NCBI RefSeq assembly: GCF_026162365.1
Contig: NZ_JAOANW010000008.1
Location: 124,001 to 188,000, forward strand
From: Nitratireductor luteus
GTDB lineage: Bacteria; Pseudomonadota; Alphaproteobacteria; Rhizobiales; Rhizobiaceae
DNA length: 64,000 nucleotides
Direction: 5' to 3'
Every line of letters starts with the position of its first letter. The first letter of the stretch is position 1. The position numbers and the translations under genes are program-made. The notes beneath the pieces were generated by a model. The model was given only the letters and a program-made list of their open reading frames with translations, did no database searches and was not told the DNA's origin. Of the stretch, positions 9,837 to 32,928 are shown one piece after another.

Positions 9837-11411
9837 ATGACCGAATTCAGCACGCCGAACGAAACCGCGCCGGAGCCGGGCCGCACCCGCCGCGGCGGGC
9901 GCACGGGAAAGCGGAATGGCGCTTCCGGCTTCTCCCAGCCGGCTTTCCAGCAGATCAAATCGCCCTTCCCCTGCACCCCGATCGTTTCCGATGACGAGCT
10001 GGAATCCATTCACCTCGCCTCGCTGCGCGTGCTTTCGGAGATCGGCCTGGAGGTGCTCCACGATGAAGCGCGTGCGATCATGAAGGAGCACGGCGCGGAC
10101 GTTCGGCCGGACACCCATCGCGTCCATTTCGACGCCGAGCTGATCGCCGGGCTGATCGCCCATTGCCCGTCCGAATACACGCTCCACGCCCGCAACCCCG
10201 CCCATGACCTGCATATGGGCGGCAACAGCATGATCTTCTCGCAGATCGGCTCGGCGCCCAATTGCTCCGACACGGACCGGGGCCGCCGGCCGGGGAACCA
10301 GGCGGATTTCCGGAATTTCATCAAGCTCGCCCAGATGCACAACATCATCCACTGCATCGGCGGCTATCCGGTCGAGCCGATCGACGTGCATCCTTCGGTC
10401 CGCCATCTGGAATGCCTGCGCGATATCGTGACGCTGACGGACAAGGTTTTTCACATCTATTCGCTGGGCAAGGAGCGCAACGTGGACGGCATCGAGATAG
10501 CGCGCATCGTGCGCGGCCTCAGCCGCGAGCAGTTGCAGGAGCAGCCTTCCTGCATGACCGTCATCAACACCAATTCCCCGCTCAAGCTGGATGTTCCGAT
10601 GATGGAAGGCATCATCCAGATGTCCTCCATGGGGCAGGCCGTCATCATCACGCCCTTCACGCTGGCCGGCGCCATGGCCCCCGTCACCATTGCCGGCGCG
10701 GTCGTCCAGCAGAACGCCGAGGCGTTGGCGGGGCTCGCCTTCAGCCAGATGGTCAGGAAAGGCGCGCCCGCCGCCTATGGCGGCTTTACCTCCAATGTCG
10801 ACATGCGCTCCGGCGCCCCGGCCTTCGGCACGCCGGAATACATGAAGGCGCAATTACTGGGCGGCCAGCTCGCCCGCCGCTACGACATCCCCTATCGCAG
10901 CTCCAATGCCTGTGCGGCGAACACGGTGGACGCGCAAGCCGCCTATGAAAGCGTGTTCTCGCTGTGGGGCTGCGTCCAGTCCGGCACGAACTTCGTCAAG
11001 CATGCCGCCGGCTGGCTGGAGGGCGGGCTGTGCTGCTCCTACGAGAAGATGATGCTCGACATCGACCTCCTGCAGATGGTGGCCGAGTTCCTCACCCCGC
11101 TTGACCTCTCGCCGGATGCGCTGGCGGTCGATGCGATCCGCGACGTTGGCCCCGGCGGCCACTTCTTCGGCTCGCCGCACACCCAGGCCCGCTACAAGAC
11201 CGCCTTCTACGCCCCCATCATCTCGGACTGGCGCAATTACGAAAGCTGGGCGCAGGCCGGCGCCCCCACGGCCATCGAACACGCCAACCGGCTATGGAAA
11301 GAGCGCCTCGCCCAATACGAGGAACCGCCCCTCGACCCGGCCATCCGCGAAGAACTCGACGATTTCGTCGCCCGGCGCATCCGCGAAGGCGGCGCGCCCA
11401 CGGATTTTTAA
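9837..11411 (+). CDS. MttB-family corrinoid-dependent quaternary/tertiary amine methyltransferase (non-pyrrolysine), paralogue 1
   Basis: The 524-residue protein belongs to the trimethylamine:corrinoid methyltransferase family. It shows HARNPAHDLHMGG, TPFTLAGAMAPVTIAGAVVQ, GGFTSNVDMRSGAPAFGTPE and KHAAGWLEGGLCCSYEK. No in-frame TAG interrupts it, so it lacks the pyrrolysine of the archaeal trimethylamine enzyme. It falls with the MtgB-like group, whose known members demethylate quaternary amines such as glycine betaine onto a corrinoid protein. The ATG at 9837 is preferred because GAGGATGAGG gives suitable spacing; 9825 is the alternative. Residues 15-26 (GRTRRGGRTGKR) form a basic tail shared in style with other pathway proteins. 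The substrate is unknown. Confidence 0.88.
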   Translation: MTEFSTPNETAPEPGRTRRGGRTGKRNGASGFSQPAFQQIKSPFPCTPIVSDDELESIHLASLRVLSEIGLEVLHDEARAIMKEHGADVRPDTHRVHFDAELIAGLIAHCPSEYTLHARNPAHDLHMGGNSMIFSQIGSAPNCSDTDRGRRPGNQADFRNFIKLAQMHNIIHCIGGYPVEPIDVHPSVRHLECLRDIVTLTDKVFHIYSLGKERNVDGIEIARIVRGLSREQLQEQPSCMTVINTNSPLKLDVPMMEGIIQMSSMGQAVIITPFTLAGAMAPVTIAGAVVQQNAEALAGLAFSQMVRKGAPAAYGGFTSNVDMRSGAPAFGTPEYMKAQLLGGQLARRYDIPYRSSNACAANTVDAQAAYESVFSLWGCVQSGTNFVKHAAGWLEGGLCCSYEKMMLDIDLLQMVAEFLTPLDLSPDALAVDAIRDVGPGGHFFGSPHTQARYKTAFYAPIISDWRNYESWAQAGAPTAIEHANRLWKERLAQYEEPPLDPAIREELDDFVARRIREGGAPTDF

Positions 11412-11415
11412 GCCG

Positions 11416-12006
11416 ATGCGCACCCGTCGACCCCCACTCCGATCCGCTTCGCGGACCACCTCTCCCCCGCTCGACGGGGGAGAGGAAGAGCCGGCCGCAA
11501 CCTCAGGCACCCTTCCTCTCCCCCCAGCGGGGGGAGAGGTGGCCCGCAGGGACGGAGTGGGGGAAGACGCCGCCGCCACGCGAAGCCGCCGGAAAGCGGG
11601 CGTCACCAAACGCGCTCGTCAGCTCCGCCAGACCGATAATGAAGCGGAAGCCTTGCTCTGGCTGGAGTTGAAGCTGCGCAGGTTGGGCGGTTTCAAATTT
11701 ACGCGCCAGTTCCCCATCGGCCCCTTCTTCGCTGACTTCGCTTGCCGGGAACGATGGCTCGTCGTCGAGGTCGACGGCAGTCAACATATCGAAAGTGCAC
11801 ATGACCGCAGGCGCGATGAGTTCATGCGTTCCCACGGCTACTCCGTGCTGCGCTTTTGGAATGTCGTCGTTCTGCAGCAGCGAAGCACGGTCTGCGAAAC
11901 AATCCTTGCAGCCCTGGAGGGCCGCCTTGCCGAGGACGTCAGCGCTCCCAACCTGCGCTTCATACACGCCCCAAGATCAATTTCAGGTACGGACATAAGC
12001 AAATGA
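11416..12006 (+). CDS. DUF559 endonuclease-like protein with repeat-encoded N-terminus
   Basis: From about 11607 on, the frame encodes a DUF559 (Vsr-like/very-short-patch-type nuclease fold) domain: AEALLWLELKLRRLGGFKF, RQFPIGPFFADFAC, LVVEVDGSQH and DEFMRSHGYSVLRFWN. This includes the acidic residues of a PD-(D/E)xK-like core. The first ~60 residues are translation of the palindromic repeat at 11431-11563 and may not be real protein; GTG codons near 11550 are alternative starts. The stop overlaps the next ATG (ATGA). The gene separates two functionally linked genes, suggesting an inserted cassette. No function is established for such proteins. Confidence 0.7.
   Translation: MRTRRPPLRSASRTTSPPLDGGEEEPAATSGTLPLPPAGGEVARRDGVGEDAAATRSRRKAGVTKRARQLRQTDNEAEALLWLELKLRRLGGFKFTRQFPIGPFFADFACRERWLVVEVDGSQHIESAHDRRRDEFMRSHGYSVLRFWNVVVLQQRSTVCETILAALEGRLAEDVSAPNLRFIHAPRSISGTDISK
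11431..11563. repeat. Palindromic repeat element joined to the DUF559 gene
   Basis: A 133-base element is bounded by CCCCCACTCC (11431-11440) and its exact reverse complement GGAGTGGGGG (11554-11563). Inside, CCACCTCTCCCCC and GGGGGAGAGGTGG form a nested inverted pair, with further small GGGGGAGAGG/CCTCTCCCCC hairpins. This CG-rich 'CTCCCCC...GGGGGAG' pattern resembles interspersed repeats of Hyphomicrobiales genomes (general knowledge, not searched). It overlaps the 5' end of the DUF559 reading frame. Confidence 0.75.
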
Positions 12007-14588
12007 AATCCCACGCAAAAGCGGTTGTCATCGGTGGCGGCGTCGTTGGCTGCTCGGTCCTCTACCACCTCGCCCGCGCCGGCTGGCGGGACGTCCTGCT
12101 CATCGAGCGCTCGGAGCTTACCTCCGGTTCTTCCTGGCATGCCGCCGGCGGTTTCCACACGCTGAACGGCGACCCGAACGTCGCCCGGCTGCAGGCCTAC
12201 ACCGTGCAACTCTACAAGGAGATCGAGGAGCTTTCCGGGCAGTCCTGCGGCCTGCATCTGACCGGCGGCGTGATGCTGGCCGACAGCCCGGAGCGCATGG
12301 ATTTCCTGCGGCTGGCCCATGCCAAGGGTCGCTATCTCGGCATGGAGACGGAACTGATCACGCCGTCGGAAGCCAAGGCGATGTTCCCGCTGATGGACGA
12401 GACGCATTTCGTCGGCGCCATGTGGGATCCGGTGGAAGGCCATCTCGACCCCTCAGGCACAACCCACGCCTATGCCAGGGCCGCGCGCAAGCTCGGCGCC
12501 GAGATCGTGCTTCGGAACCGTGTGACCGAGCTTACCCAGGAGCCGGACGGCACGTGGAACGTCGTCACCGAGCAGGGCACGGTAAAGGCCGAGCATGTGG
12601 TCAATTGCGGCGGCCTGTGGGCGCGCGAGGTGGGACGCATGGTTGGGCTGGAACTGCCGCTTCTGGCCATGGAGCACATGTATCTGCTCACCGAGCCCAT
12701 GCCGGAGGTGGAAGAATTCAACCGCTCCACTGGCCGCGAGATGATCGGCGTCATCGATTTCAAGGGCGAAATCTATACGCGGCAGGAGCGCAACGGCATC
12801 CTGCTCGGCACCTATGAGAAGGCGGCGAAACCCTGGTCGCCGCGCCAGACGCCATGGGATTTCGGCCACGAGCTTCTGGAGCCCGACATCGACCGCATCG
12901 CGCCTTCGCTGGAAGTGGGCTTCCGCCATTTCCCGGCGCTGCAGAATGCCGGCATCAAGCAGATCATAAACGGCCCCTTCACCTTCGCGCCCGACGGCAA
13001 CCCGCTGGTCGGGCCCGTGCAGGGGCTGACCAATTTCTGGTGCGCCTGCGCCGTCATGGCCGGGTTCAGCCAGGGCGGCGGCGTGGGGCTGGCGCTTGCC
13101 AACTGGATGGTCGACGGAGATCCCGGCTTCGACGTCTGGGGCATGGATGTCGCCCGCTTCGGCGAGTGGGCAAGCCTTCGCTACACCAACGCCAAAGTGC
13201 GCGAGAACTATTCCCGCCGCTTCTCCATCCGCTTCCCCAACGAGGAACTGCCCGCCGCTCGTCCCGCGCAGACGACGCCCCTCTACGACATCATGACCCG
13301 CGACAACAATGCGGTGATGGGCGATTCCTGGGGGCTGGAAACGCCGCTCTGGTTCGCGCCCAAGGGCACGGCGCCGAAGGATATCGTCTCCTTCCACCGC
13401 TCCAACGACTTCGAGCATGTGGGAGAAGAGGTGCGCGCCGTGCGCGAGCGCGTCGGCGTCACGGAGATCGCCAATTTCGCCAAGTACGAGGTCACGGGCC
13501 CCGGCGCGGAAGACTTCCTCAACCGACTGATGACCAACAGCATGCCGAAGACGGGCCGCATCGTGCTTTCGCCCATGCTCAACGAATTCGGCAAGCTCAT
13601 CGGCGATTTCACCATCGCCAAGGCGCAAGAAGAGCGGTTCATGATCTGGGGCTCGTCGGCGGCGCAGGTCTATCACATGCGCTGGTTCGAAAAGCACCTG
13701 CCTGGGGACGGATCGGTTCGCATCCACCGTTTCGACCAGACGCTGGTGGGTCTTTCCATTGCCGGTCCGCAATCACGCGCCGTGCTGGAAAAGCTCGCCG
13801 ACATCGACGTATCAAGAGATGCCTTCCGCTTCATGGATTTCCGCCAGATGGCGGTGGCCGGCTGCCCCTGCATGGTCAACCGGCTGACCTATACAGGCGA
13901 TCTGGGCTACGAGATATGGATGCCGCCCGCCTATCAGCGCCAGGTGTATATGGCGATAAAGGAGGCAGGTGCGCCATTCGGCATCGCCGATTTCGGGATG
14001 CGCGCCCTGCTGTGCATGCGGCTGGAAAAGAACTTTCCGACATGGTTCCGCGAGTTGCGGCCGATCTACGGCCCGTACGAAGGCGGCATGGGCCGGTTCG
14101 TCAAGCTCGAGAAGAACGATTTCATCGGACGCGAGGCCGCCGCCAGGGAGCAGGCCGAGGGCCCGAAGCTTCGGCGGGTTTCGTTTGTCGTCGCGGTGTC
14201 GGACGCCGATGTGATGGGCGACGAGCCCATATGGGCCCGCGTGAACGGGCGCGAATTCGGCACCGTCGCAAAATCCCATGGCTTCGGCGCACAGCGCTTC
14301 GGCGCGGATGGTGGTGAGATCGAGGGCCGCGCCGCGCCGGACGGATCGGGCGGTGCGTCCTCAGTCAGGGGCATCGAGGATGGCGCCTGGCGCGTGGTCG
14401 GCTGGGTCACTTCGGGCGGATACGCGCATTATGTACGCAAATCCATGGCACAGGGCTACGTGCCGGCCGAACTCGCCGAGGATGAAAGCGAAGGCCTGTT
14501 CGAGATCGAAATCCTCGGTCACCGCCGCCCAGCCCGCATCAATATCGATCCGCCCTTCGATCCGGTGGGCGAGCGGATGAGGGGGTGA
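12003..14588 (+). CDS. FAD-dependent GcvT-fusion oxidoreductase (dimethylglycine/sarcosine dehydrogenase-like)
   Basis: The 861-residue protein joins an N-terminal DAO-type FAD domain to a C-terminal aminomethyltransferase (GcvT) domain. The dinucleotide loop VVIGGGVVGCSVLYHLA is at the start, with SGSSWHAAGG next; the GcvT part begins near residue 440. This is the layout of dimethylglycine and sarcosine dehydrogenases, which demethylate the amine and hand the one-carbon unit to tetrahydrofolate as methylene-THF. It lies after mttB paralogue 1, so it could take the product of that demethylation. A low-complexity Gly/Ala insert near residue 780 is unusual. The start overlaps the DUF559 stop. 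Confidence 0.88.
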   Translation: MKSHAKAVVIGGGVVGCSVLYHLARAGWRDVLLIERSELTSGSSWHAAGGFHTLNGDPNVARLQAYTVQLYKEIEELSGQSCGLHLTGGVMLADSPERMDFLRLAHAKGRYLGMETELITPSEAKAMFPLMDETHFVGAMWDPVEGHLDPSGTTHAYARAARKLGAEIVLRNRVTELTQEPDGTWNVVTEQGTVKAEHVVNCGGLWAREVGRMVGLELPLLAMEHMYLLTEPMPEVEEFNRSTGREMIGVIDFKGEIYTRQERNGILLGTYEKAAKPWSPRQTPWDFGHELLEPDIDRIAPSLEVGFRHFPALQNAGIKQIINGPFTFAPDGNPLVGPVQGLTNFWCACAVMAGFSQGGGVGLALANWMVDGDPGFDVWGMDVARFGEWASLRYTNAKVRENYSRRFSIRFPNEELPAARPAQTTPLYDIMTRDNNAVMGDSWGLETPLWFAPKGTAPKDIVSFHRSNDFEHVGEEVRAVRERVGVTEIANFAKYEVTGPGAEDFLNRLMTNSMPKTGRIVLSPMLNEFGKLIGDFTIAKAQEERFMIWGSSAAQVYHMRWFEKHLPGDGSVRIHRFDQTLVGLSIAGPQSRAVLEKLADIDVSRDAFRFMDFRQMAVAGCPCMVNRLTYTGDLGYEIWMPPAYQRQVYMAIKEAGAPFGIADFGMRALLCMRLEKNFPTWFRELRPIYGPYEGGMGRFVKLEKNDFIGREAAAREQAEGPKLRRVSFVVAVSDADVMGDEPIWARVNGREFGTVAKSHGFGAQRFGADGGEIEGRAAPDGSGGASSVRGIEDGAWRVVGWVTSGGYAHYVRKSMAQGYVPAELAEDESEGLFEIEILGHRRPARINIDPPFDPVGERMRG

Positions 14589-14599
14589 GGTGGCGCAGA

Positions 14600-15394: not shown

Positions 15395-15465
15395 GGCCGA
15401 ATGTGTACGCAAACGGACGTAAGGTTCAAGCTTTTATAGAGAAAACCCGGTGTTGCGGCTGTTTT

Positions 15466-17589: not shown

Positions 17590-18636
17590 ATGCAGAACCC
17601 GATCGACGCGCTTATTGCGGAAAAAGGCGTACTGCTCGCCGATGGCGCGACCGGCACAAACCTCTTCGCCATGGGGCTGCAGTCCGGCGAGGCGCCGGAG
17701 TTTTGGAACGATGAAGCGCCGGAAAAGATCGAGGCGCTGCATCAGGGCTTCATCGATGCGGGCGCCGATATCATCCTGACCAATTCCTTCGGCGGCACGC
17801 GGCACCGGCTCAAGCTGCACGACGGCCAGGATCGTGTCTTCGAGCTCAACAAGAAAGCCGCCGAGATCGCCTGCCGCGTCGCCGCCAAGGCTGGCCGCCG
17901 CGTCATCGTCGCCGGCTCCGTCGGCCCTACCGGCGAACTGCTGGTGCCGCTGGGGGCGCTCACCTACGAGGCCGCCGTCGAGGCCTTCGCGGAACAGATC
18001 GAGGGCCTCAAGGCCGGCGGCGCGGAAGTCGCCTGGATCGAGACCATGTCGGCGCCCGACGAGATCAAGGCCGCGGCAGAAGCAGCGATCAAAGTGGGCC
18101 TGCCCTACACCTATACCGGTTCGTTCGACACGGCCGGCCGCACCATGATGGGCCTCGCCCCAAAGAATATTCACGATGTCGGCGAAACGCTGCCGCAGAA
18201 GCCGGTTGCCGTGGGCGCCAATTGCGGCGTCGGCGCGCCCGATATCCTTGCGGCCCTGCTGGACATGTCCGAAGCCCGCCCCGACGCCACCATCGTGGTC
18301 AAGGGCAATTGCGGCATCCCGGAATTTCGTGGTACCGAGATCCATTATTCGGGCACGCCCGAACTCATGAGCGAGTATGTGCGCCTTGCCGTCGACGGCG
18401 GCGCCAGGATCATCGGCGGCTGCTGCGGCACCTCGTTCGAGCACCTGGCCGCCATGCGCAAGGCGCTCGATGGGCACCAGAAGAACGGTCGCCCCGACAT
18501 CGCCGCCATCGAAGCCCGCGTTGGCCCGATGCGCAACAAGGGCGCGGCCCAGAGCGGTGCCGATAGCGGACCCGGCAGAAGCCGGCGCAGACGTACCGGG
18601 TCGAATACAGAGGCCAGCCTTCGCGGGAAGCCCTGA
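17590..18636 (+). CDS. bmt: Betaine-homocysteine S-methyltransferase
   Basis: The 348-residue cytoplasmic zinc enzyme moves a methyl group from glycine betaine to homocysteine, giving dimethylglycine and methionine. Homocysteine methyltransferase features are LADGATGTNLF at the start, ILTNSFGG, and the zinc cysteines in GANCGVG (Cys213) and GGCCGTS (Cys278-279). The assignment to betaine as donor, rather than S-methylmethionine, follows the resemblance to rhizobial Bmt and the betaine gene context. The C-terminal ~30 residues are an extension containing GRSRRRRTG, a basic patch like those on other pathway proteins. It is preceded by a palindromic operator. Confidence 0.85.
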   Translation: MQNPIDALIAEKGVLLADGATGTNLFAMGLQSGEAPEFWNDEAPEKIEALHQGFIDAGADIILTNSFGGTRHRLKLHDGQDRVFELNKKAAEIACRVAAKAGRRVIVAGSVGPTGELLVPLGALTYEAAVEAFAEQIEGLKAGGAEVAWIETMSAPDEIKAAAEAAIKVGLPYTYTGSFDTAGRTMMGLAPKNIHDVGETLPQKPVAVGANCGVGAPDILAALLDMSEARPDATIVVKGNCGIPEFRGTEIHYSGTPELMSEYVRLAVDGGARIIGGCCGTSFEHLAAMRKALDGHQKNGRPDIAAIEARVGPMRNKGAAQSGADSGPGRSRRRRTGSNTEASLRGKP

Positions 18637-18842
18637 ACGCATCCAGGATGGGCTTGAGTTGGGCACTCCCAGAATACAACTAGGGATCGCCGGAAAACTG
18701 ACTTTAATACCAGTAATAGAAATCTTTAAGCTTATTCGGTTGTTTTTTTTCGAGCCGCGCAAAAACCACGCTCCGAATTAACGTTTTAGTCAACGATAGA
18801 GCCTGATCGTTACCCGAACCAAGAATGGGCGGGGACTATCGG
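18637..18842. other. Short AT-rich gap between bmt and the Tad genes
   Basis: These 206 bases hold no gene. They are much richer in A and T than the flanks and include an eight-T run near 18745. There is no convincing hairpin before the T-run. It most likely contains the bmt transcript end and the promoter of the Tad genes. Confidence 0.35.
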
Positions 18843-20780
18843 ATGTATAACCGAATAAGGCGGTTTGCTGGGGATCGCTCGGGGGCCACGGCAATCGTTG
18901 TCGTACTCCTGCTCCCGATCTTGCTGGGAATGAGCGCGCTGTCGATCGAGTATGGGTCCGGCCTTCTTACCCGCGTGAAAAATCAGCGGGCAGCGGACCT
19001 CGCGTCCATCGCCGGCGCTCTGGCATATAGCGACACGGGATCGGAAGAGCGCATGCGGGCTGCAGCGGCCGATGTCGCCGCGCTCAACGGTCTGCCCGGC
19101 TCCTCTATTGTGACCACGCTTTCGTCCTCACCGCGCGATCCCGATGCTGAGGCCGTTCACGTCACGATAAAAACCAGCAACAAGCTCGTGCTCGCTACCG
19201 TATTGGGTATAGATCCCTCGCTGAAGATAGCGGCGCAGGCCAATACTGCCATCGCTACCGAAAGCGGCGGCTGCATTCTCGCTCTGGATCAAGCCGGCTC
19301 GGGAATCACACTATCCGGCGGCGTGAGAGTAAATGCAGGTTCCTGCAACGTAGCCTCCAATGCCACGATAACGGCGCCCTGCGGCACCAGGATCACCACG
19401 GAAGGCGCCAATTATTTCTCGGAAAGCGCGCCTGCCGACTGCCGGTGGAGCGATAATATCGTAAAGCCGGACGGCAACCCTGCTCCAACCAGCAAAAAGT
19501 ACACCGACGATCCTCTCGCCGGAAATGAAGGCGTGGCCACGCTCCAAGCCCGTTTCAACGAAATGGATAAAGCGGTCTGGCCGAGCAAGGTTTCCGTCGC
19601 GAAAAGAGAAAACATCCATTTCGGCTGGTCCCCGCTCAAGGACCGGGAGTTGGAGGCCCTGAACGCGACAGATTGCGCAGCCACGAGACCCGACGGCGCA
19701 TGGAGTTCCCACTGGGTCGTCACCTGCACCGGCGACGAAGTCAATCTCGGTTCGATCACCGCCGATGGCGGTATCCGGATAGACTTCAACAACGCGAGCA
19801 GCGAGCCGCCGATCCGGAAGATCACCTATAATTTCTCGGGCGCCATCAACACGCAAAACGCTCCGATCGCGTTCGGTCCGGGAACCTTCAACATCATGGA
19901 AGGCGTCTACGGGGCCAATGTCACTTTCGGCGCGGGGACCTTCCACATCGGTCGGGGTACGACCCAATGCGGGGCCAGCTTCTACAGCATCTGCAACTCC
20001 GGCACGATGACCTTTGATGGGCCGAGCACGTTCGTTCTGGATGCCGGAATCCATAATGGTGGCGGCGCGAAGCTCTCGCTCGGCGCCGGCGCTTCCAACA
20101 GCTATATCATACGGTCCGCCGGGAACGGCGACGCCATAACCGTAAGCGGCGGCTCGCGCACTCATCTGGCCGACGCCACCGGGAAAGACGGCGTCTACCG
20201 CGTCGGCGGCAATGTGAACGGCAGCGGCGGCGGAAGCTGCCTGGTCTTTCCTGCCGCCGAGCAACACGACATATCGGGCAATGTGCATCTGGCAGGTGGC
20301 GCCAAACTGGGCGCCGGGATCTACACGATCGACGGCTATTTCAAGATCGATACGGGCGGCGCCAATTGCTCCGACTGGCCGGGCGCGATCTACGGCAAGG
20401 ATGTGAACATCATCATTTCAGGCAAGACGACTCCCAGCGACTGGTCGTGCCGGGAACGCGCCTTCTGCATAAGCGGAGGCAACAGCGTCACCTTGTTGGC
20501 TCCGGTCTCTGGAGCACTGGCCAAACTGGCGGTCATTGGCCCGCAATCACCCGATGTTACGTCCGGGGCAATGATTGATGCGGGCGGCAAGGCACGCATC
20601 TCAGGCGCATTCTACTTCCCCAACGGCGATGTCGACATGCACGGCGGCGGCAGGATCGAGGGCGCCGAGGGCGATTGCCTGCAGCTGATCGGCGCAAGCG
20701 TCTCGTTGTCCGGCGGCACTTCCGCCACGTCGGAATGCGTCGAGGCGAGCGGCGCCGGCAATATCGCCCTCATTCAATAG
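18843..20780 (+). CDS. TadG-like pilus-associated surface protein
   Basis: The 645-residue protein begins with a TadE/TadG-type N-terminus: FAGDRSGATAIVVVLLLPIL, a basic-then-hydrophobic segment that anchors it in the inner membrane, then a RAADLASIAGALAY helix. The remainder is Gly/Asn/Ser-rich with repeating short strands (ITLSGGVRVNAGSC, FGAGTFHIGRGT), like a right-handed beta-helix adhesin region. It contains several cysteines that may form disulphides. I chose the ATG at 18843; 18825 is also possible. Two TadE-like genes follow. No Tad secretion ATPase, secretin or prepilin peptidase lies in the window. Confidence 0.8.
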   Translation: MYNRIRRFAGDRSGATAIVVVLLLPILLGMSALSIEYGSGLLTRVKNQRAADLASIAGALAYSDTGSEERMRAAAADVAALNGLPGSSIVTTLSSSPRDPDAEAVHVTIKTSNKLVLATVLGIDPSLKIAAQANTAIATESGGCILALDQAGSGITLSGGVRVNAGSCNVASNATITAPCGTRITTEGANYFSESAPADCRWSDNIVKPDGNPAPTSKKYTDDPLAGNEGVATLQARFNEMDKAVWPSKVSVAKRENIHFGWSPLKDRELEALNATDCAATRPDGAWSSHWVVTCTGDEVNLGSITADGGIRIDFNNASSEPPIRKITYNFSGAINTQNAPIAFGPGTFNIMEGVYGANVTFGAGTFHIGRGTTQCGASFYSICNSGTMTFDGPSTFVLDAGIHNGGGAKLSLGAGASNSYIIRSAGNGDAITVSGGSRTHLADATGKDGVYRVGGNVNGSGGGSCLVFPAAEQHDISGNVHLAGGAKLGAGIYTIDGYFKIDTGGANCSDWPGAIYGKDVNIIISGKTTPSDWSCRERAFCISGGNSVTLLAPVSGALAKLAVIGPQSPDVTSGAMIDAGGKARISGAFYFPNGDVDMHGGGRIEGAEGDCLQLIGASVSLSGGTSATSECVEASGAGNIALIQ

Positions 20781-20811
20781 TCCGCCCGTATCCGAGAGAC
20801 AGCGAGAAACC

Positions 20812-21417
20812 ATGCAATCCCCACCTGCAAACACCGCAAGGCGTCCCCGTAAAATCGGCGTACAGGAAATTCGATCTTTCCTATTTCGCAACGAAGAAGG
20901 CGTTTCTGCGCTGGAATTCGCGATCTTCACCCCAATTCTCGCCCTGCTGCTTGGAGCGGGCATCGACCTGGGGCTGATGCTCCACTCGCAGTTCAGCTTG
21001 AACTCGATGATATCATTGAGCGCAAATCAGGCATTCCTGAACCGCGATATGGTCGATGACGCAAACGGCGAAACTCTTGCCAAACAGATCATCGCAGTTC
21101 TCGCCGGCACCGGCGGCAAGCTCGTTTCTGAAGCCACCGTTGTCGTCAATAACGGGCCCACGGCCCGGCTCGAGCAGCATCCGGCTGTGATGAAGGCTTC
21201 GTCTGGCTCCGCCGATAGCTGCTATTGCCCGACCGGCAGCGGCAGCTCGTTTTCCTGGGGCAAACCCACAGGCTGCGGCGAAGAATGCGGCGACGGAAAT
21301 CTGTCGGGGAAGTATGTCATGGTCACCGCCAGATCGGACTATGAACCGTTCTTCATCGGTTTCGGCTACACCAGCGCACAAGCGCTTCAAGCCAGCGCCG
21401 TGGTGCGTACTCAATGA
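20812..21417 (+). CDS. TadE-like pseudopilin
   Basis: The 201-residue protein has a basic cytoplasmic start, then RNEEGVSALEFAIFTPILAL, the TadE/TadF pattern with the glutamate five residues after the leader-like GV and a single hydrophobic helix. The C-terminal half is extracytoplasmic with paired cysteines (CYCPTGSG, CGEECGDG). It is 31 bases after the TadG-like gene and overlaps the next gene by four bases, so the three form an operon. TadE-type proteins are minor pseudopilins of Flp pili. Confidence 0.85.
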   Translation: MQSPPANTARRPRKIGVQEIRSFLFRNEEGVSALEFAIFTPILALLLGAGIDLGLMLHSQFSLNSMISLSANQAFLNRDMVDDANGETLAKQIIAVLAGTGGKLVSEATVVVNNGPTARLEQHPAVMKASSGSADSCYCPTGSGSSFSWGKPTGCGEECGDGNLSGKYVMVTARSDYEPFFIGFGYTSAQALQASAVVRTQ

Positions 21418-21857
21418 ACTGCAGGACCAAAGGCTTCATAAAGGCGAATGACGGCACAAGCGCCCTGGAATTCGCGATCATCGCGCCCGTTCTGTTCCTG
21501 TTCCTGTTCGGCATTATCGAAATAAGCCGGATGTTCTGGACAGATCATGTGCTGAACGAAACCGCGATCCGAACAGCCAGATGCATGGCGCTTCCCCAGC
21601 TCGAATGCACCAAGGACGGGGCTTTCGATCTTGTATCGACGACGGCCTTCGCCATGAAGCAAGCGGACGATTTCGGCGTTTCACTGACGCCGGGCGCCAT
21701 TCAGCTGAATCGGGCCGCGAAATGCTTCGATGTCGAGGGCTTCTCCAAAGTGTCGATAAGCCACAAGTTCGAAACCGTCGTTCCCGGTTTTCTGCCTTCC
21801 CTTTCTGAGATGACCGCGCTATCCACGGACGCCTGCTTCCCCAACCAGCCTGCCTGA
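21414..21857 (+). CDS. TadE/TadF-like pseudopilin
   Basis: The 147-residue protein starts with the ATGA overlap of the previous gene. It shows ANDGTSALEFAIIAPVLFLF, the TadE/TadF signature with the conserved glutamate and a single membrane helix, followed by an extracytoplasmic domain with four cysteines. It is probably a minor pseudopilin partner of the two proteins upstream. It converges with the second mttB gene, leaving 26 bases. Confidence 0.85.
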   Translation: MNCRTKGFIKANDGTSALEFAIIAPVLFLFLFGIIEISRMFWTDHVLNETAIRTARCMALPQLECTKDGAFDLVSTTAFAMKQADDFGVSLTPGAIQLNRAAKCFDVEGFSKVSISHKFETVVPGFLPSLSEMTALSTDACFPNQPA

Positions 21858-21883: not shown

Positions 21884-23482
21884 TCAGGAAAAGGCGTCCG
21901 GCATAGCTTCTTTGCGCTTTGCCACGAAATCCTTCAGCCCCTCATCGATGCCTTCGTCGAGCGGTGGCGGCTGGTAGGCTTCCAGCCAGCTCCGGGCCAA
22001 TTGGTTGGCACGCTGGTTCGCCGTCTTTTCGCCCTCAGCCAACCACTGCTCGTAGGAATTGTTGTCGGCGATTGAAGAACGATAGAAGGCCGTCTGGAAG
22101 TTCGCCTGGGTGTGCGCGCAGCCAAGGTAGTGGCTGCCCGGCCCCACCTCGCGTATGGCGTCCATTGCCTGGCCGTTCTCCGACAGATCCAGCGGTTCGC
22201 ACAGGCGCTGCTGCATGCCGAGCTGATCGATGTCCATCATGAATTTCTCGTAGGACGACACCAGCCCGCCCTCCAGCCAGCCGGCGGCGTGCAGCACGAA
22301 ATTGGTGCCCGCAAGCACCGTCGAATTGAGCGTGTTCGCACTTTCGTAGGCTGCCTGTGCGTCCGCAACCTTGGATGCCGTCAGCGAGCCGCCGGTGCGG
22401 AACGGCAGGCCGAGCCGGCGGGCGAGCTGCGCAGCGCCGTAGGAGACGAGCGAGGGTTCCGGCGTGCCGAAGGTGGGCGCGCCGGACTGCATGGAAATGG
22501 ACGAAGCGAAGGTGCCGAAGAGGACCGGCGCGCCGGGCCGCACGAGCTGAGTGAAGGCGGCGCCTGCGAGCACTTCGGCCAACACTTGCGTCAGCGTGCC
22601 GGCCACCGTCACCGGGCTCATGGCCCCTGCCAGGATGAAAGGCGTGATGATGCAGGCCTGATTGGCCCGTGCATAGACCTTGGCCGCCCCGAGCATCGTC
22701 TCGTCGAAGACCATGGGCGAGTTGGCGTTGATGAGATTGATGACGACGGTGTTGTTGTCGACGAACTCCTCGCCAAAGAGTATCCTCGCCATCATCACCG
22801 TGTCCTCGGCCCGGTCCGGCGCCGTCACCGAGCCCATGAATGGTTTGTCGGAAAAACGCATATGGGCGTAGACCATGTCCAGATGGCGTTTGTTGACAGG
22901 CACGTCCACAGGCTCACAAACGGTGCCCCCCGAATGGTGGATCGACGGCGCCATATAGGCGAGCTTCACGAGGTTGCGGAAATCCTCGATCGTCGCATAG
23001 CGCCGCACACCGTCAAGATCGCGCACGAAGGGCGGACCATAGACAGGCGCAAAAACCGTGGCGTTGCCGCCGATCTCGACCGAGCGCTCGGGGTTGCGGG
23101 CGTGCTGTGTGAAGACGGAAGGCGCGGTCTTCAGGAGCTCTCGGCACAAGCCCCTGGGAAAATGCACACGGTCACCCTGAACGTCGGCGCCAGCGGCCTT
23201 CCAGAGCGCCAACGCCTCGGCGTCGTCGCGGAACTCGATGCCGATCTCCTCGAGCACCGTATCGGCGTTGGCCTCGATGAGCGCCAAGCCGTCCTCGTCC
23301 AGTATCCCGTAGGGTGAAAGGTTGCGGCGGATATAGGTGAGCTGCGTGCCCGGCCCGCCGCCCGTGCGCGCGGCGCGGCGCGCGGCGGCTCCACCGCGCT
23401 CCCCTCGCCCGCCCCTGCTGCGGCGGCCTTCGGCTGCGGCGTCGGGGGTGGCTGAAAACTCGTCTGGCGAATTCTGATTCAT
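21884..23482 (-). CDS. MttB-family corrinoid-dependent methyltransferase (non-pyrrolysine), paralogue 2
   Basis: The 532-residue protein shares the MttB layout with the protein at 9837: TPFILAGAMSPVTVAGTLTQ, FGTFASSISMQSGAPTFGTPE and LHAAGWLEGGLVSSYEKFM. There is no in-frame TAG, so no pyrrolysine. It should transfer a methyl group from a quaternary or tertiary amine to the corrinoid protein encoded at 25206. Residues 19-39 form an Arg/Gly-rich tail including GRRSRGGRGER and AAARRAAR, outside the catalytic barrel. It differs from paralogue 1 in many active-region residues, suggesting another substrate. It opens towards the one-carbon cluster but on the opposite strand. Confidence 0.88.
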   Translation of the reverse strand: MNQNSPDEFSATPDAAAEGRRSRGGRGERGGAAARRAARTGGGPGTQLTYIRRNLSPYGILDEDGLALIEANADTVLEEIGIEFRDDAEALALWKAAGADVQGDRVHFPRGLCRELLKTAPSVFTQHARNPERSVEIGGNATVFAPVYGPPFVRDLDGVRRYATIEDFRNLVKLAYMAPSIHHSGGTVCEPVDVPVNKRHLDMVYAHMRFSDKPFMGSVTAPDRAEDTVMMARILFGEEFVDNNTVVINLINANSPMVFDETMLGAAKVYARANQACIITPFILAGAMSPVTVAGTLTQVLAEVLAGAAFTQLVRPGAPVLFGTFASSISMQSGAPTFGTPEPSLVSYGAAQLARRLGLPFRTGGSLTASKVADAQAAYESANTLNSTVLAGTNFVLHAAGWLEGGLVSSYEKFMMDIDQLGMQQRLCEPLDLSENGQAMDAIREVGPGSHYLGCAHTQANFQTAFYRSSIADNNSYEQWLAEGEKTANQRANQLARSWLEAYQPPPLDEGIDEGLKDFVAKRKEAMPDAFS

Positions 23483-25205: not shown

Positions 25206-25904
25206 ATGTCCGACGACGAAATCATCCTTTCGGATCTTTCTGACGAAGAACTCGTGCAGCAGATGCACGACGACCTTTATGACGGTCTGAAAGAAGAGAT
25301 CGAGGAAGGCACGCGGATACTCCTGGAGCGCGGCTGGACGCCTTATGACCTGCTCACCCAGGCCCTCGTGGAAGGCATGCGCATCGTCGGCGAGGATTTC
25401 CGCGACGGTATCCTTTTCGTGCCGGAGGTGCTTTTGTCGGCCAACGCCATGAAGGCGGGCATGACCATCCTGCGCCCCCTTCTGGTGGAAACGGGAGCGC
25501 CAAAACAGGGCAAGATGGTGATCGGCACCGTCAAGGGCGACATCCATGACATCGGCAAGAATCTCGTCGGCATGATGATGGAAGGCGCCGGCTTCGACGT
25601 GATCGACCTTGGGATCAACAACCCTGTCGAGAATTACCTTGCAGCAATCGAGGAGCATCAGCCCGACATCGTCGGCATGTCCGCGCTTTTGACCACGACC
25701 ATGCCTTACATGAAGGTGGTCATCGACACGCTGAAGGAAAAAGGCATCCGCGACGACCTTATCGTCTTGGTGGGCGGCGCGCCTTTGAATGAAGAATTCG
25801 GCAAGGCGGTCGGCGCAGACGCCTACTGCCGCGATGCGGCCGTCGCCGTCGAAACGGCGAAGGCCTTCATGAAGCGGAAGCACAATATCGGCGCTTCGGC
25901 CTAG
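25206..25904 (+). CDS. Corrinoid (methylcobalamin-carrying) protein of the amine methyltransferase system
   Basis: The 232-residue protein has the MtbC/MttC/MtaC two-domain layout. A helical cap (about residues 20-95) is followed by a Rossmann-like B12 domain with DIHDIG at 112-117, whose histidine ligates cobalt, then GFDVIDLG and VLVGGAPLN. It shuttles a methyl group between MttB-type proteins and a tetrahydrofolate methyltransferase. The first 20 residues (SDDEIILSDLSDEELVQ) are strongly acidic, longer than the usual start, and may dock with the basic tails of its partners. GGAG precedes the ATG. The 282-base gap upstream, shared with the divergent SCPU gene, holds no other gene. Confidence 0.93.
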   Translation: MSDDEIILSDLSDEELVQQMHDDLYDGLKEEIEEGTRILLERGWTPYDLLTQALVEGMRIVGEDFRDGILFVPEVLLSANAMKAGMTILRPLLVETGAPKQGKMVIGTVKGDIHDIGKNLVGMMMEGAGFDVIDLGINNPVENYLAAIEEHQPDIVGMSALLTTTMPYMKVVIDTLKEKGIRDDLIVLVGGAPLNEEFGKAVGADAYCRDAAVAVETAKAFMKRKHNIGASA

Positions 25905-26137: not shown

Positions 26138-26171
26138 GATTGTCCCTCCTGGAACGGCCTGAGATCTTGAG

Positions 26172-26822: not shown

Positions 26823-27011
26823 TTGGTTCAAATCGGCCTTGGAGATTCCATATTGATGCGGTGTGCTCGCCTTTGTTCACTTTCTCTCTCTCCGCGTACC
26901 GCACTCGGGCGTCCATGACCGTCACGGAACCCTTTGCATAACTGTCATGAAGGCTTAACAGCTTACGGCGCATGATGCGTTCAACACAACGAGCATGAAG
27001 AAAGACATCCG

Positions 27012-27656: not shown

Positions 27657-27770
27657 CCTCGCCGCTTGACGGCATCTCCCGCGTCGCATTTGAAAGAACG
27701 CGCGTCGTCGCGCAGCAAGCAGCCGTGCGCGCAAGGGCGCAATCCTCGACACAATGGAGACATGCCGGAT

Positions 27771-28073: not shown

Positions 28074-28662
28074 AAAAAAGAAGCCCCTGCGCCAGCGCGT
28101 GACGCAGGCCACCATCGTGCGCAAGGCGCGGGAGCTCATCGCCTACAAGCCGGCGGACGTGTCGCCGCAGCGGCGCGTGCAACGCCGCTATACGATGCGG
28201 CGATGGTCGGTGCGCCATGCGCGCAGCCTGGAATGGTTCTACGCTCATTTCGCCAATATGTTCCTGGTGCTCCACCCCTTGTGGAACGCCATCGGATACC
28301 GGCGGGCCGAAGCGCCTGTGAAATTCGTCGAGAAACAGGTCAAAGGCCTCTTGTTCGACTGCCGCATGTGCGGCCAGTGCATTCTTTCGTCTACCGGCAT
28401 GTCCTGTCCGATGAACTGCCCGAAGCAATTGCGCAATGGCCCCTGCGGCGGCGTGCGCGCCAACGGCAATTGCGAGGTGGAGCCCGACATGCCCTGCGTC
28501 TGGGTGAAGGCGTGGGAGGGCGCGCAGCGGATGCGCGGAACAGAAAACATTCTCGACGTGCAAAAGCCCGTCGATCAGTCCCTGCGCGAAACCTCCTCGT
28601 GGCTGCGCGTCACTGCACTTGCCGCCGCCGAGCGCAACCGGAATACGAAGGCCGCCGAATGA
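28060..28662 (+). CDS. metV: MetV-like methylene-THF reductase partner (MTHFR C-terminal domain protein)
   Basis: The 200-residue protein has a lysine/arginine-rich N-terminus. A central helical part comes next, then the cysteine motif CRMCGQC (Cys101, 104, 107), SCPMNCPK and GPCGGVRANGNC. This is the MTHFR C-terminal (MetV) family, which in acetogens binds an iron-sulphur and/or zinc site and pairs with MetF to link methyl-THF oxidation/reduction to other electron carriers. Here it directly overlaps a MetF-like gene by four bases. An acetogen-style pair in an aerobe suggests methyl-THF oxidation. The gene symbol is by analogy. Confidence 0.85.
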   Translation: MTSNKKKKPLRQRVTQATIVRKARELIAYKPADVSPQRRVQRRYTMRRWSVRHARSLEWFYAHFANMFLVLHPLWNAIGYRRAEAPVKFVEKQVKGLLFDCRMCGQCILSSTGMSCPMNCPKQLRNGPCGGVRANGNCEVEPDMPCVWVKAWEGAQRMRGTENILDVQKPVDQSLRETSSWLRVTALAAAERNRNTKAAE

Positions 28663-29756: not shown

Positions 29757-29763
29757 GAGCGTT

Positions 29764-29851
29764 GTAAGGCGGTAGGGGAGTAGGGAGACTTCGAATCCAT
29801 GAAGCGCCACCATCCATTCCCTACCTGCTGCCCTACTGCCCTACTTCCTTG
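29764..29851. repeat. Intergenic inverted repeat, GGGAGTAGGGA type, copy B
   Basis: The left arm carries GTAGGGGAGTAGGGAG and the right arm TCCCTACCTGCTGCCCTACT with CCTACTTCCTTGCC, an imperfect inverted pair around a central CGAATCCATGAAGCGCC. It resembles the element at 6354-6467 and likewise begins just after a stop codon and ends before the promoter or ribosome site of the next gene. Confidence 0.6.
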
Positions 29852-29876
29852 CCCCGCTTGAAACTCGTCAAATAAC

Positions 29877-29898
29877 GATATAAACAACTCTTTATATC
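29877..29898. promoter_or_regulatory. Palindromic operator before the methyl-THF methyltransferase gene
   Basis: GATATAAACA, two spacer bases AC, then TCTTTATATC form an inverted pair with 9 of 10 arm positions matching. The core is nearly identical in sequence and spacing to the perfect palindrome at 17528-17551 before bmt. It lies 16 bases before the ATG at 29915, so it would overlap promoter or leader. Confidence 0.7.
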
Positions 29899-29914
29899 TT
29901 CTGGAGGATAGTGA

Positions 29915-30868
29915 ATGACCCGCACCATCGTCGCCTCGGCGACAAAGGAAGTCGTGATCGGCTTCGACCAGCCCTTCTGCGTCATCGGCGAACGCATCAA
30001 CCCGACCGGCCGCAAGAAACTGGCCGCCGAGATGGTCGAAGGCAATTTCGAGACAGTGATCAAGGACGCGCTGGCCCAGGTGGCCGCCGGGGCGACGATG
30101 CTGGACGTCAATGCCGGCGTGACCGCGGTCGACCCCAATGCCACCGAACCCGCGCTGCTGGTCCAGACGCTGGAAATCGTTCAGGGTCTCGTCGACGTAC
30201 CCCTGTCGATCGACTCTTCGGTCTCGGCCGCCATCGAGGCAGCACTCAAGGTGGCCAAGGGCCGCCCGCTGGTCAACTCCGTGACCGGCGAGGAAGAAAA
30301 GCTCGAAGCCATCCTACCGCTGATCAAGAAGTACGACGTGCCCGTCGTCGCCATCTCGAACGATGAGACAGGAATCTCGGAAGATCCCGACGTTCGTTTC
30401 GAAGTGGCCAGGAAGATCGTGCAGCGCGCGGCCGATTTCGGCATCCCGGCGCACGACATCGTGGTCGATCCGCTGGTCATGCCCATCGGCGCCATGGGCA
30501 CGGCGGGCAAGCAGGTCTTCGCGCTTCTGCGCCGCCTGCGTGAGGAGTTGAAGGTCAACACGACCTGCGGCCTGTCCAACATCTCGTTCGGCATCCCGCA
30601 TCGCCACGGCATCAATGCCGGCTTCATTCCCATGGTCATCGGCGCCGGCATGACCAGCGCCATCATGAATCCGTGCCGGCCACAGGAAATGGAGGCCGTG
30701 CGCGCCGCCAACGTCCTCAACGGCACCGACCCCAACTGCCACACCTGGATCATGACCTATCGCGATCATCAGCCGGCGGCCGGCGGCACCGCGCAGGCGG
30801 CACCCGTGGATTCGTCGTCCGGCGGACGCCGCCGCGGCGGACGCGAGGCGCGGCGGGCGCGGGGATAA
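29915..30868 (+). CDS. Methyl-tetrahydrofolate:corrinoid methyltransferase (MtrH/MeTr-like)
   Basis: The 317-residue pterin-binding barrel protein has GERINPTGRKKLAAEM at 25-40, TMLDVNAGVTAVDPN, PLSIDSSV, AISNDETGISEDPDVRFE and VDPLVMPIGAMG. The family includes AcsE-type MeTr and the MtvA/MtgA enzymes that move a methyl group from methyl-corrinoid protein to THF. Placed after MetV/MetF and before a RACo-type activator, it most likely receives methyl groups from the corrinoid protein at 25206. Its C-terminal tail, GRRRGGREARRARG (304-317), nearly matches the end of the activator. The GGAGG ribosome site lies just before the ATG. Confidence 0.92.
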   Translation: MTRTIVASATKEVVIGFDQPFCVIGERINPTGRKKLAAEMVEGNFETVIKDALAQVAAGATMLDVNAGVTAVDPNATEPALLVQTLEIVQGLVDVPLSIDSSVSAAIEAALKVAKGRPLVNSVTGEEEKLEAILPLIKKYDVPVVAISNDETGISEDPDVRFEVARKIVQRAADFGIPAHDIVVDPLVMPIGAMGTAGKQVFALLRRLREELKVNTTCGLSNISFGIPHRHGINAGFIPMVIGAGMTSAIMNPCRPQEMEAVRAANVLNGTDPNCHTWIMTYRDHQPAAGGTAQAAPVDSSSGGRRRGGREARRARG

Positions 30869-30879
30869 GGTCGCGAATC

Positions 30880-32928
30880 ATGACCGACCACCTCGTCCTT
30901 TTCATGCCATCGGGCAAGCGCGGACGCTTTGAAAAGGGCACCGCCGTGCTCGACGCCGCACGCAAGCTTGGCGTCTATGTCGAGAGCGTGTGCGGCGGGC
31001 GCGCGACTTGCGGGCGCTGCCAGATCGAGGTGCAGGAAGGCCATTTCGCCAAGCACAAGATATCCTCGTCGAAAGAGAGCATCTCCGGCGTTGGCCCCAA
31101 CGAGGCCCGCTATCTGGAAAAGCGGTCCCTGCCCGCCGGACGCCGCCTCTCCTGTGCAGCCACCATCGAAGGCGATCTCGTGGTGGACGTCCCGCAGGAT
31201 GCGGTGGTCAACGCACAGGTGGTGCGCAAGGACGCCGACGACCGCCTGATCGAGCGCCGCCCGGCCGTTCGGCTTTGCTATGTCGAGGTCGAAGAACCCG
31301 ACATGCACAAGCCGCTGGGCGATCTCGACCGGGTCAAAACCGCGCTCCGAAAGGACTGGGGCTATGGGCGGCTGGAGGCGGATTATCATTTGCTGCCGCA
31401 GGCGCAGAAGACATTGCGCGAAGGGCAATGGGCCGTCACCGCCGCTGTCCACGAGGACGAGGAAGCCGAGACGGCGCACATCATCGCGCTGTGGCCGGGG
31501 CTGAAGAACGAGGCCTATGGCATCGCCTGCGATATCGGCTCGACAACCATCGCCATGCACCTGGTCTCGCTTCTGTCGGGACGGGTCGCGGCCTCTGCCG
31601 GCACGTCGAACCCGCAAATCCGCTTCGGCGAAGACCTGATGAGCCGCGTTTCCTATGTGATGATGAATCCGGAAGGCCGCGACGCCATGACCAAGGCGGT
31701 GCGGCTGGAAATATCCAAGCTGGTCCAGCAGGTGGTGGACGAGGCGGGCTGCACCCGCGAGGATGTGCTGGACGCCGTCTTCGTCGCCAACCCCATCATG
31801 CACCACCTGTTCCTGGGCATCGACCCGACGGAGCTTGGGGGCGCGCCCTTTGCGCTCGCCGTCTCGGGCGCGGTGAAATTGAGGGCCGACGATCTGCGCC
31901 TGAAGCTCAATCCGGGCGCGCGCACCTATTTATTGCCCTGCATCGCCGGCCATGTCGGCGCTGATGCCGCCGCCGTGACGCTCTCTGAGGGGCCGCATCG
32001 GCAGGACGAGATGATGCTGATAGTCGATGTCGGCACCAACGCCGAAATCGTGCTCGGCAACCGGAGCCGCGTCGTCGCCGCCTCCTCGCCCACCGGACCG
32101 GCCTTCGAAGGCGCCGAAATCTCCGCTGGCCAGCGCGCCGCCCCCGGCGCCATCGAACGCGTGCGTATCGACCGTGAGACGCTCGAGCCCCGCTACCGCG
32201 TGATCGGCTCGGACAGATGGTCGAACGAGCCCGGATTCATGGAGGCTGTCGGCCCGACCGGCGTGACCGGCATCTGCGGCTCCGGCATCATCGAGGTGAT
32301 TGCCGAGATGTACCTGTCCGGCATCATCTCCGAAGATGGCGTCATCGACGGCGCACTGGCCGCGAAAAGTCACCGCATCGTCGGCGACGGCCGCACCTTC
32401 TCCTACGTCCTGGCCGAGACCGAGCCGCGCCTGACGATTACGCAGAACGACGTGCGCGCCATCCAGCTCGCCAAGTCGGCGCTCTATGCCGGAACGAAGC
32501 TTCTCATGGAAAAACAGGGTGTTGTGGCTGTCGATTCTATTCGTTTTGCAGGCGCCTTCGGCTCGTTCATCGACCCGACTTACGCGATGGTTCTGGGCCT
32601 CATCCCCGATTGCGAGCTGGAAAAGGTCTCAGCCGTGGGCAATGCCGCCGGCACCGGCGCGCGCATGGCGCTGCTCAACCGCGACCACCGCCGCGAGATC
32701 GAGGAGACGGTGCGCCGGATCGAGAAGATCGAAACGGCTCTGGAGCCGAAGTTCCAGGAGCATTTCGTCTACGCCATGGCGCTGCCCAACAAGGTCGATC
32801 CATTCCCCAAGCTCGCGGCCCAGGTCCAGCTTCCGCCCCGCAAGGTGCTTGGCGGCGACGGCAGCGATGCCGCCCGCCCCCGCCGCCGCTCTCGTGAGGA
32901 GCGCGAAGCGAGGCGGCAGCGCGGATAG
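30880..32928 (+). CDS. RACo-type reductive activator of corrinoid methyltransferases (2Fe-2S + ASKHA)
   Basis: The 682-residue protein begins with a plant-type 2Fe-2S ferredoxin domain: Cys38, Cys44, Cys47 in CGGRATCGRCQIEV and a fourth cysteine near 92 in RLSCA. A linker follows, then an ATP-binding ASKHA/DUF4445 domain from about residue 212 (IACDIGSTTIAMHLVSLLSG, LIVDVGTNAEIVLGN, GICGSGIIEV). It uses ATP and reducing power to reduce inactive Co(II) corrinoid back to Co(I). It follows the methyltransferase gene by 11 bases. The tail RPRRRSREEREARRQRG ends in REARRQRG, matching the methyltransferase's REARRARG. Confidence 0.93.
   Translation: MTDHLVLFMPSGKRGRFEKGTAVLDAARKLGVYVESVCGGRATCGRCQIEVQEGHFAKHKISSSKESISGVGPNEARYLEKRSLPAGRRLSCAATIEGDLVVDVPQDAVVNAQVVRKDADDRLIERRPAVRLCYVEVEEPDMHKPLGDLDRVKTALRKDWGYGRLEADYHLLPQAQKTLREGQWAVTAAVHEDEEAETAHIIALWPGLKNEAYGIACDIGSTTIAMHLVSLLSGRVAASAGTSNPQIRFGEDLMSRVSYVMMNPEGRDAMTKAVRLEISKLVQQVVDEAGCTREDVLDAVFVANPIMHHLFLGIDPTELGGAPFALAVSGAVKLRADDLRLKLNPGARTYLLPCIAGHVGADAAAVTLSEGPHRQDEMMLIVDVGTNAEIVLGNRSRVVAASSPTGPAFEGAEISAGQRAAPGAIERVRIDRETLEPRYRVIGSDRWSNEPGFMEAVGPTGVTGICGSGIIEVIAEMYLSGIISEDGVIDGALAAKSHRIVGDGRTFSYVLAETEPRLTITQNDVRAIQLAKSALYAGTKLLMEKQGVVAVDSIRFAGAFGSFIDPTYAMVLGLIPDCELEKVSAVGNAAGTGARMALLNRDHRREIEETVRRIEKIETALEPKFQEHFVYAMALPNKVDPFPKLAAQVQLPPRKVLGGDGSDAARPRRRSREEREARRQRG

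Follow-up and report, generated by a model that had tools for sequence, protein, structure and literature searches.

Arginine-rich terminal tails on the partners of the corrinoid protein MtgC in Nitratireductor luteus: a candidate docking tag for a shared B12 carrier

How can enzymes with different substrates share one small corrinoid carrier? The question is raised by a 64-kb stretch of Nitratireductor luteus DNA (64,000 nucleotides of contig NZ_JAOANW010000008.1, here C43, in a genome of 4.9 Mb), which is called the window in this text. Judged by their family matches, the genes considered here are an aerobic-type corrinoid methyl-transfer system, MtgBCDE with RamA, that is, a glycine-betaine demethylase together with a split methionine synthase. 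In the original prediction, made on this DNA, it was proposed that the partners of the corrinoid protein MtgC share an Arg/Gly-rich terminal tail acting as a docking or assembly tag. The comparison of relatives described below gives good support to a tag that marks the partners of MtgC, and makes it fairly likely that the partners share, in their tails, an electrostatic tag for docking on the B12 carrier by way of the acidic N-terminal arm of MtgC; direct binding of tail to arm and a faster turnover are what we infer from it. The genes concerned are the following.

9837-11411, + strand: MttB1 (MtgB), a PF06253 methyltransferase (translation, Pfam)
17590-18636, + strand: Bmt (MtgE), the split-type homocysteine methyltransferase (NF005718, PF02574)
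21884-23482, - strand: MttB2 (MtgB), a PF06253 methyltransferase (translation, Pfam)
25206-25904, + strand: the corrinoid protein MtgC, a stand-alone B12-binding protein (PF02310, PF02607)
29915-30868, + strand: MeTr (MtgD), the methyl-tetrahydrofolate methyltransferase, a stand-alone pterin-binding protein (NF005719, PF00809)
30880-32928, + strand: RACo (RamA), the activase (PF14574)

All the tail peptides named in the original prediction, as well as the acidic N-terminus of the corrinoid protein, were found in the window translations. The C-terminal sequence of MtgD is GGRRRGGREARRARG, the corrinoid protein starts MSDDEIILSDLSDEELVQQMHDDLYDG, and the N-terminal tail of MttB2 contains GRRSRGGRGER and AAARRAAR; in MttB1, the PF06253 match begins at residue 18, within the tail.

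9879..9914, + strand: N-terminal Arg-rich tail of MttB1/MtgB, GRTRRGGRTGKR (translation, start candidates)
18574..18600, + strand: Arg tail GRSRRRRTG within the extended C-terminus of Bmt/MtgE, followed by 11 residues (translation)
23366..23428, - strand: N-terminal Arg-rich tail of MttB2/MtgB, GRRSRGGRGERGGAAARRAAR (translation)
25206..25310, + strand: acidic N-terminal arm and first helix of MtgC (orthologue counts, invariant residues, predicted local distance difference test or pLDDT)
30770..30823, + strand: hypervariable Ala/Gly/Ser/Pro linker of MtgD (entropy, low pLDDT)
30824..30865, + strand: C-terminal tail of MtgD, GRRRGGREARRARG, with R306, R307, G308, G309, R310 and R313 invariant in 79/79
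32875..32925, + strand: C-terminal tail of RACo/RamA, RPRRRSREEREARRQRG (translation, orthologue counts)

The terminal octapeptides of MtgD and RACo have seven of eight residues in common, with different codons at three of these seven, and the sequence before the octapeptide differs between the two genes. Recent copying between them is thus unsupported, as had been argued at the outset. Among 261 genes called in 349 kb of this genome (the window plus 285 kb), RACo had the highest C-terminal Arg count, with 8 in the last 15 residues, followed by a next best of 6; MeTr is absent from this sample, its gene having been dropped for overlap with the long RACo open reading frame, and Bmt scored only 3 because 11 residues lie beyond its tail. 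The N-terminal Arg count did not single out the MttB proteins in the same sample (MttB1 6, MttB2 5, maximum 7), in part owing to gene starts that had been placed too far upstream.

A contrast was provided by 80 loci from named relatives, mostly Hyphomicrobiales, in which 1274 genes were called. At least five Arg in a 15-residue segment near the C-terminus were present in RACo (78/78), MeTr (67/78) and Bmt (14/14), compared with 12/713 of the other genes of the same loci, so that the tails are not equally common in unrelated proteins. No such C-terminal segment was found in the corrinoid protein (0/76), DUF1638 (0/75), the PF13769 protein (0/70), MTHFR (0/64), DUF5981 (0/42) or the C-ends of MttB (0/64), and the tail of RACo had at least six Arg in all 78 named orthologues. 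A wider count was made over loci L003-L422 (loci L442-L468 lie outside it), with totals given as distinct sequences, the window copies included. A C-terminal tail was scored when at least five Arg or Lys fell within 15 of the last 30 residues, and an MttB tail when at least five fell within 20 residues inside the 32 residues before the core; stop-to-stop frames untrimmed at start codons were read for MttB, so some of its residues may precede the true start. By these measures, the conservation in orthologues that had been expected was borne out: a basic C-terminal tail was found in 146/156 MeTr, 138/139 RACo and 52/52 complete split-type Bmt, and a basic N-terminal extension before the core in 206/207 MttB. 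The ten remaining MeTr score 4 and keep RRGGRAAR or RRGGRAGR. The neighbouring families taken as controls had a basic C-terminal tail in 5/138 (DUF1638), 2/127 (PF13769), 1/75 (DUF5981) and 3/76 (MTHFR) cases.

Incomplete open reading frames and alignments shorter than 60 residues were excluded from the wider count, as were sequences below set limits of coverage or length (25% for MeTr, RACo and Bmt, 50% for MTHFR, 180 residues for the corrinoid protein, 300 residues for MttB) and of identity (55% for RACo and MeTr, 46% for Bmt, 40% for DUF1638, 45% for PF13769 and DUF5981, 50% for MTHFR). Rows excluded in this way include the tailless RACo of genome G039 at L254 and L255, its RACo at L256 with an end rich in Lys and Arg, and distant homocysteine methyltransferases without a tail in G037, G038 and G079. 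The exceptions were a RACo without an in-frame tail in G129, where a stretch rich in Arg is read in a different frame immediately downstream, a MeTr in G156 whose Arg stretch precedes a Gly-rich end, and one MttB row of G055 which scored 4, one under the threshold.

The tail thus persists while its sequence varies, taking forms such as REARRxRG, RREREARRRRR, REGRRRRRRA and RGGRRGGRRRR. Of the shared Arg/Gly-rich tail originally proposed, the conserved Arg-rich character was retained, whereas a fixed octapeptide as the tag was rejected; the exact octapeptide is lineage-specific, and what is general is a tail rich in Arg (RRGGRxxR in the MeTr of Hyphomicrobiales, with similar strings in many MttB paralogues). 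In MtgD, the six residues R306, R307, G308, G309, R310 and R313 are invariant in 79 aligned MeTr, the window included, with five or six codons used per Arg, and 152 distinct MeTr tails use all six Arg codons. The motif [RK]xGGRx[AGS][RK] was found in 78/78 MeTr of the 80 loci and in 0/713 other genes; it is nearly absent from the other partners (RACo 2/78, MttB2-type 0/64, Bmt 0/14), and their tails therefore resemble that of MeTr in character rather than in exact string. One match in 64 MTHFR lay away from the ends. Between core and tail, the MtgD linker is indel-rich and has a mean entropy of 1.62 bits, against 0.21 for the core and 0.75 for the tail, and residues 289-306 have pLDDT values below 50, the linker being predicted to be disordered.

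The acidic N-terminus of the carrier is conserved as well, as had been anticipated from the window. In all 150 MtgC of loci L003-L422, 11-16 of the first 32 residues are Asp or Glu, compared with 6-8 in three paralogues. L8, L11, L16, Q19, D22, D23, D26 and E31 are invariant in 45 sequences, and residues 11-20 have a mean pLDDT of 97. A search of the PDB with the model of the corrinoid protein returned B12 folds and nothing on a partner of the arm.

The distribution of the genes was followed across genomes. MeTr was found at E <1e-100 in 62/150 genomes of the order, and 49 of the 62 were searched further, with RACo and the corrinoid protein present in 49/49, MttB in 45/49 and split-type Bmt (E <1e-80) in 41/49; seven of the eight genomes without split-type Bmt have weaker, mostly MetH-like matches, and one has none. 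Between 10 and 20 MttB-type matches were found in 9/49 genomes, and MttB paralogues carry Arg-rich N-termini across the genomes of the order. Four genomes without a detected MttB (G083, G022, G007 and G093) retain the tails on MeTr, RACo and Bmt, and in one of these (G007) the MeTr tail is kept at a locus G+C content of 39.5%. A tag tied to betaine use was consequently rejected; the tag therefore follows the partners of the carrier, split methionine synthase included. It had also been sought within Hyphomicrobiales, and it extends beyond them. In a sample of 299 genomes of the phylum, the corrinoid protein was found in 29 at E up to 1e-40, of which 15 belong to other orders of the same class and one to another class. 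All 16 of these genomes beyond the order have basic ends on MeTr and RACo and an acidic arm on the corrinoid protein, and basic ends were likewise found on the 36 listed MttB and on both Bmt retrieved. Even MttB paralogues at 25-30% identity show tail forms such as RSGGRAARRAARAAPL in 11/14 loci, L405, L412 and L414 being unreadable, and the MttB N-terminus of Ruegeria pomeroyi DSS-3 is MTKTNRRRGRKDRLK. Plasmid records of Sinorhizobium meliloti, Paracoccus aminovorans and the betaproteobacterium Azoarcus sp. KH32C hold a tailed MeTr and RACo and an acidic arm, with MttB in the S. meliloti and P. aminovorans regions only. Genomes G052 and G123, chosen for a comparison with Bmt from genomes without the pathway because they showed no MeTr beyond MetH-like matches, have a Bmt ending in the weaker basic tail RGRHHRRAH; G052 was found to carry a RACo with a basic end and G123 an MttB1-type protein. 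As a separate observation, MeTr and RACo of S. meliloti are separated by a 112-residue open reading frame with a basic C-terminus and no Pfam match (L444:10966-11304), and short frames like it occur in several other Rhizobiaceae loci; the window has no room for one.

The identity of the system rests on several profile matches. The two PF06253 proteins scored 674 and 787 bits, and in a search of the genome with this family both copies fell inside the window. MtgD scored 399 bits against NF005719 (cut-off 259) and also matched PF00809, MtgE 540 bits against NF005718 (cut-off 338) and also matched PF02574, and RamA 303 bits against PF14574. MtgC matched PF02310 and PF02607, and its 213 bits against NF047996 (MtgC) fall below the cut-off of 370. 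A DUF1638 protein (PF07796, 90 bits), a PF13769 protein and DUF5981 are also encoded in the cluster, and between Bmt and MttB2 it contains three Tad pilus-like genes at 18825-21857 (PF13400 once, PF07811 twice). Gene families identical to those of the window are known from Ruegeria pomeroyi, with MtgBCDE, RamA and DUF1638 (PMC12478193), and from the split MetH of Phaeobacter inhibens (PMC5764234). In the former, Mausz et al. (2025) reported that betaine demethylation and methionine synthesis both use MtgC and MtgD, and a multimeric enzyme around MtgC was proposed there, while the split methionine synthase was described by Price et al. (2018) in the latter.

In the mechanism proposed here, MtgE (homocysteine), MtgD (folate), MtgB (betaine-type substrates) and the activase RamA would each reach one small MtgC in turn. 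The end of each partner, N-terminal in MtgB and C-terminal in the others, would consist of a variable linker and a short Arg-rich peptide, and this peptide would bind MtgC at its acidic N-terminal arm and at the first helix of the cap. Docking by the tails would stand in for the covalent linkers of one-chain MetH, raising the local concentration and letting partners swap quickly, with specificity coming from contacts at the active site. The tails sit on proteins that exchange a methyl group or an electron with the corrinoid protein, and the other operon genes tested are without them; a docking tag is the simplest reading of tails that, among the genes tested, are restricted to proteins that must meet the cobalamin, and of an opposite charge conserved on MtgC. 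A wider version of this proposal, a portable docking code by which any methyltransferase gaining an Arg-rich tail at either end would plug into the shared carrier through the acidic arm, has about an even chance of being right.

Known systems offer partial parallels. A cobalamin-binding protein docks on a TIM-barrel methyltransferase in MttB-MttC and MtaB-MtaC of Methanosarcina (PMC9842639; PDB 7xcn, 2i2x), and the extra N-terminal domain of MtaC appears to stabilise the complex (PMC9842639). Docking there is by a dimerisation loop (PMC9842639), however, and the extra part of MtaC is a domain, unlike the short acidic arm of MtgC; no extra folded N-terminal domain of the MtaC type was found before the cap in the window MtgC. 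MttC matches from its residue 5, which leaves no room for an arm of the MtgC type, and the match to the Methanosarcina MttB starts at residue 24 of that protein, the 23 residues ahead of it lying outside the comparison. In one-chain MetH, the same activities surround one B12 domain, but the modules are covalently joined. The RGG/RG-rich tails of RNA-binding proteins are Arg- and Gly-rich. In the window, RGG occurs twice in MttB2 and once each in MeTr and MttB1, whereas RACo and Bmt have none and the tails of many relatives are plain runs of Arg; unlike RNA-binding tails, those of the window type sit on the partners of one carrier.

Homologues outside the system were compared in the same way. 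Genome G039 has a main set in which all tails and the arm are present, and paralogues scattered across about 49 kb of its contig C7; among these the corrinoid protein (43% identity) lacks the acidic arm, and the Arg tail is missing from RACo (54%) and from Bmt (53%). Basic tails are retained elsewhere on RACo sequences of 55-58% identity and on Bmt of 46-48%, and divergence alone therefore does not account for this absence. The corrinoid genes of C7 may form one system; a MeTr-like protein, Bmt, two corrinoid proteins and two RACo, without Arg tails or an acidic arm, were recorded over L455 (C7:14500-22500), L254 and L255. The MetH-like frame of G006 (1261 residues) has no Arg tail at its end, and no comparable tail was seen on the RACo of the archaeon Halomicrococcus, the Clostridia Vescimonas and Acetoanaerobium or the gammaproteobacterium Thiodictyon. 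Among solved structures, the match to the RACo 3zyy stops at query residue 637 of 682, leaving 10 residues in 3zyy and 45 in the window RACo; the MttB 9yce begins 2 residues before the matched core; the matches to 2qne and 7xcl begin after 15 and 23 residues, whose sequence lies outside the comparison; and the corrinoid proteins 1y80, 7xcn and 4jgi have 5, 4 and 12 residues ahead of the match. The MttB structure 4yyc, which we take to be from S. meliloti, has an N-terminal extension. An MttB homologue on S. meliloti pSymB (L452:2456-3709, 417 residues), beside phnC, phnD and phnE, has no N-terminal tail and aligns only to MttB2 residues 55-414. The MttB of M. barkeri contacts MttC mainly through a C-terminal dimerisation loop (PMC9842639); on the alignment, the pSymB homologue would lack this corrinoid-binding loop, and it is perhaps not a corrinoid enzyme. 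Two further arrangements were noted: on a haloarchaeal plasmid (L445:8146-12852), genes for a corrinoid protein, RACo, DUF1638 and an MtrH-like protein follow one another close to FAD-dependent oxidoreductases, and their products have no Arg tails, and in Terrarubrum flagellatum (L450:8701-10983) the PF13769 'virulence factor' protein and RACo are fused in a chain of 760 residues, which suggests that the PF13769 protein works in corrinoid activation rather than virulence.

Several observations weigh against docking of the tails on the arm. The charges of tail and arm covary only weakly, with Spearman coefficients, uncorrected for kinship, of 0.23 for MtgD (n=139; 0.17, P=0.17, in a subset of 65 genomes), 0.19 for RACo (n=129; 0.37 in a subset of n=56) and 0.20 for Bmt (n=49, not significant); being confounded by kinship, the correlation counts for little as proof of binding. 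The contrast with the G039 paralogues is imperfect, since the MeTr-like paralogue on C7 (33% identity) ends in the Lys-containing RAEAKKAKAAAAAA and a third RACo (L256, 34% identity) has a Lys/Arg-rich end. DUF1638 is tailless although it may also contact MtgC; in P. inhibens this protein has been linked to the reactivation of B12 (PMC5764234). Finally, the looseness of the tail sequence (REARR, RRRRRG, RRGGRRRR) would also fit a non-specific polyanionic partner.

That looseness is shared ground for two other explanations. The Arg-tailed oligomeric enzymes and the acidic carrier might co-assemble into a loose cluster or a condensate and so concentrate the pathway, which would suit tails of low complexity and loose conservation, a linker predicted to be disordered in MtgD, and opposite charges on carrier and partners. 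A defined interface is suggested, however, by the precise RRGGRxxR of 79/79 MtgD and by an ordered carrier arm with invariant residues, and a carrier with one arm would crosslink poorly, so that clustering is regarded as unlikely. It is more improbable still that the tails bind RNA, polyphosphate, the nucleoid, the membrane or another polyanion and bring the enzymes together at that site; RNA binding is common among Arg-rich tails and MttB2 has two RGG, but such binding leaves unexplained why the tails are on the partners of MtgC, why the carrier has an acidic arm and why pathway neighbours are tailless.

A role in cis, by which each tail would regulate or stabilise its own enzyme through oligomer formation or the entry of folate or substrate, is in keeping with the position of the tails at chain ends and with the folate-binding nature of the MtgD family. 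It has slim prospects, as four enzyme families with different substrates are all tailed, and at different termini. The least probable explanation, to which hardly any weight is given, is that the tails have no function and reflect high G+C content, read-through of a frame or inheritance; high-G+C genomes are over-represented in the sample and most Arg codons are GC-rich, but the tails are kept across classes and in the low-G+C genome mentioned above with mixed codons, and seldom occur in the remaining genes of these loci. Chance or base-composition bias as such was ruled out by the background among the 713 other genes, the invariant motif with varied codons and the persistence at 39.5% G+C.

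The enzymes are already known, and the tag and arm appear to be undescribed as a system-wide feature. No paper describing the Arg tails or the arm was found by title or abstract, several of the literature lists being covered by their top entries only. The main text of PMC12478193 has no mention of arginine, tail or AlphaFold, though a remark is possible in its supplements, which lie outside this scope; the excerpts of PMC5764234 gave no match to 'arginine-rich', and PMC12366255 has no mention of arginine, tail or terminus.

If true, a portable code would replace the linkers of MetH and allow expansion to many MttB-type demethylases around a single carrier. The docking of tails on the arm offers a testable answer to how one corrinoid carrier can serve both the split methionine synthase and a large, still expanding group of demethylases in bacteria that are widespread in the sea and in soil. 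If this docking is right, the tail is a sequence marker by which the MttB-family proteins that use MtgC can be predicted, and it could serve as a simple building block when B12 methyl-transfer pathways are assembled in laboratory strains.

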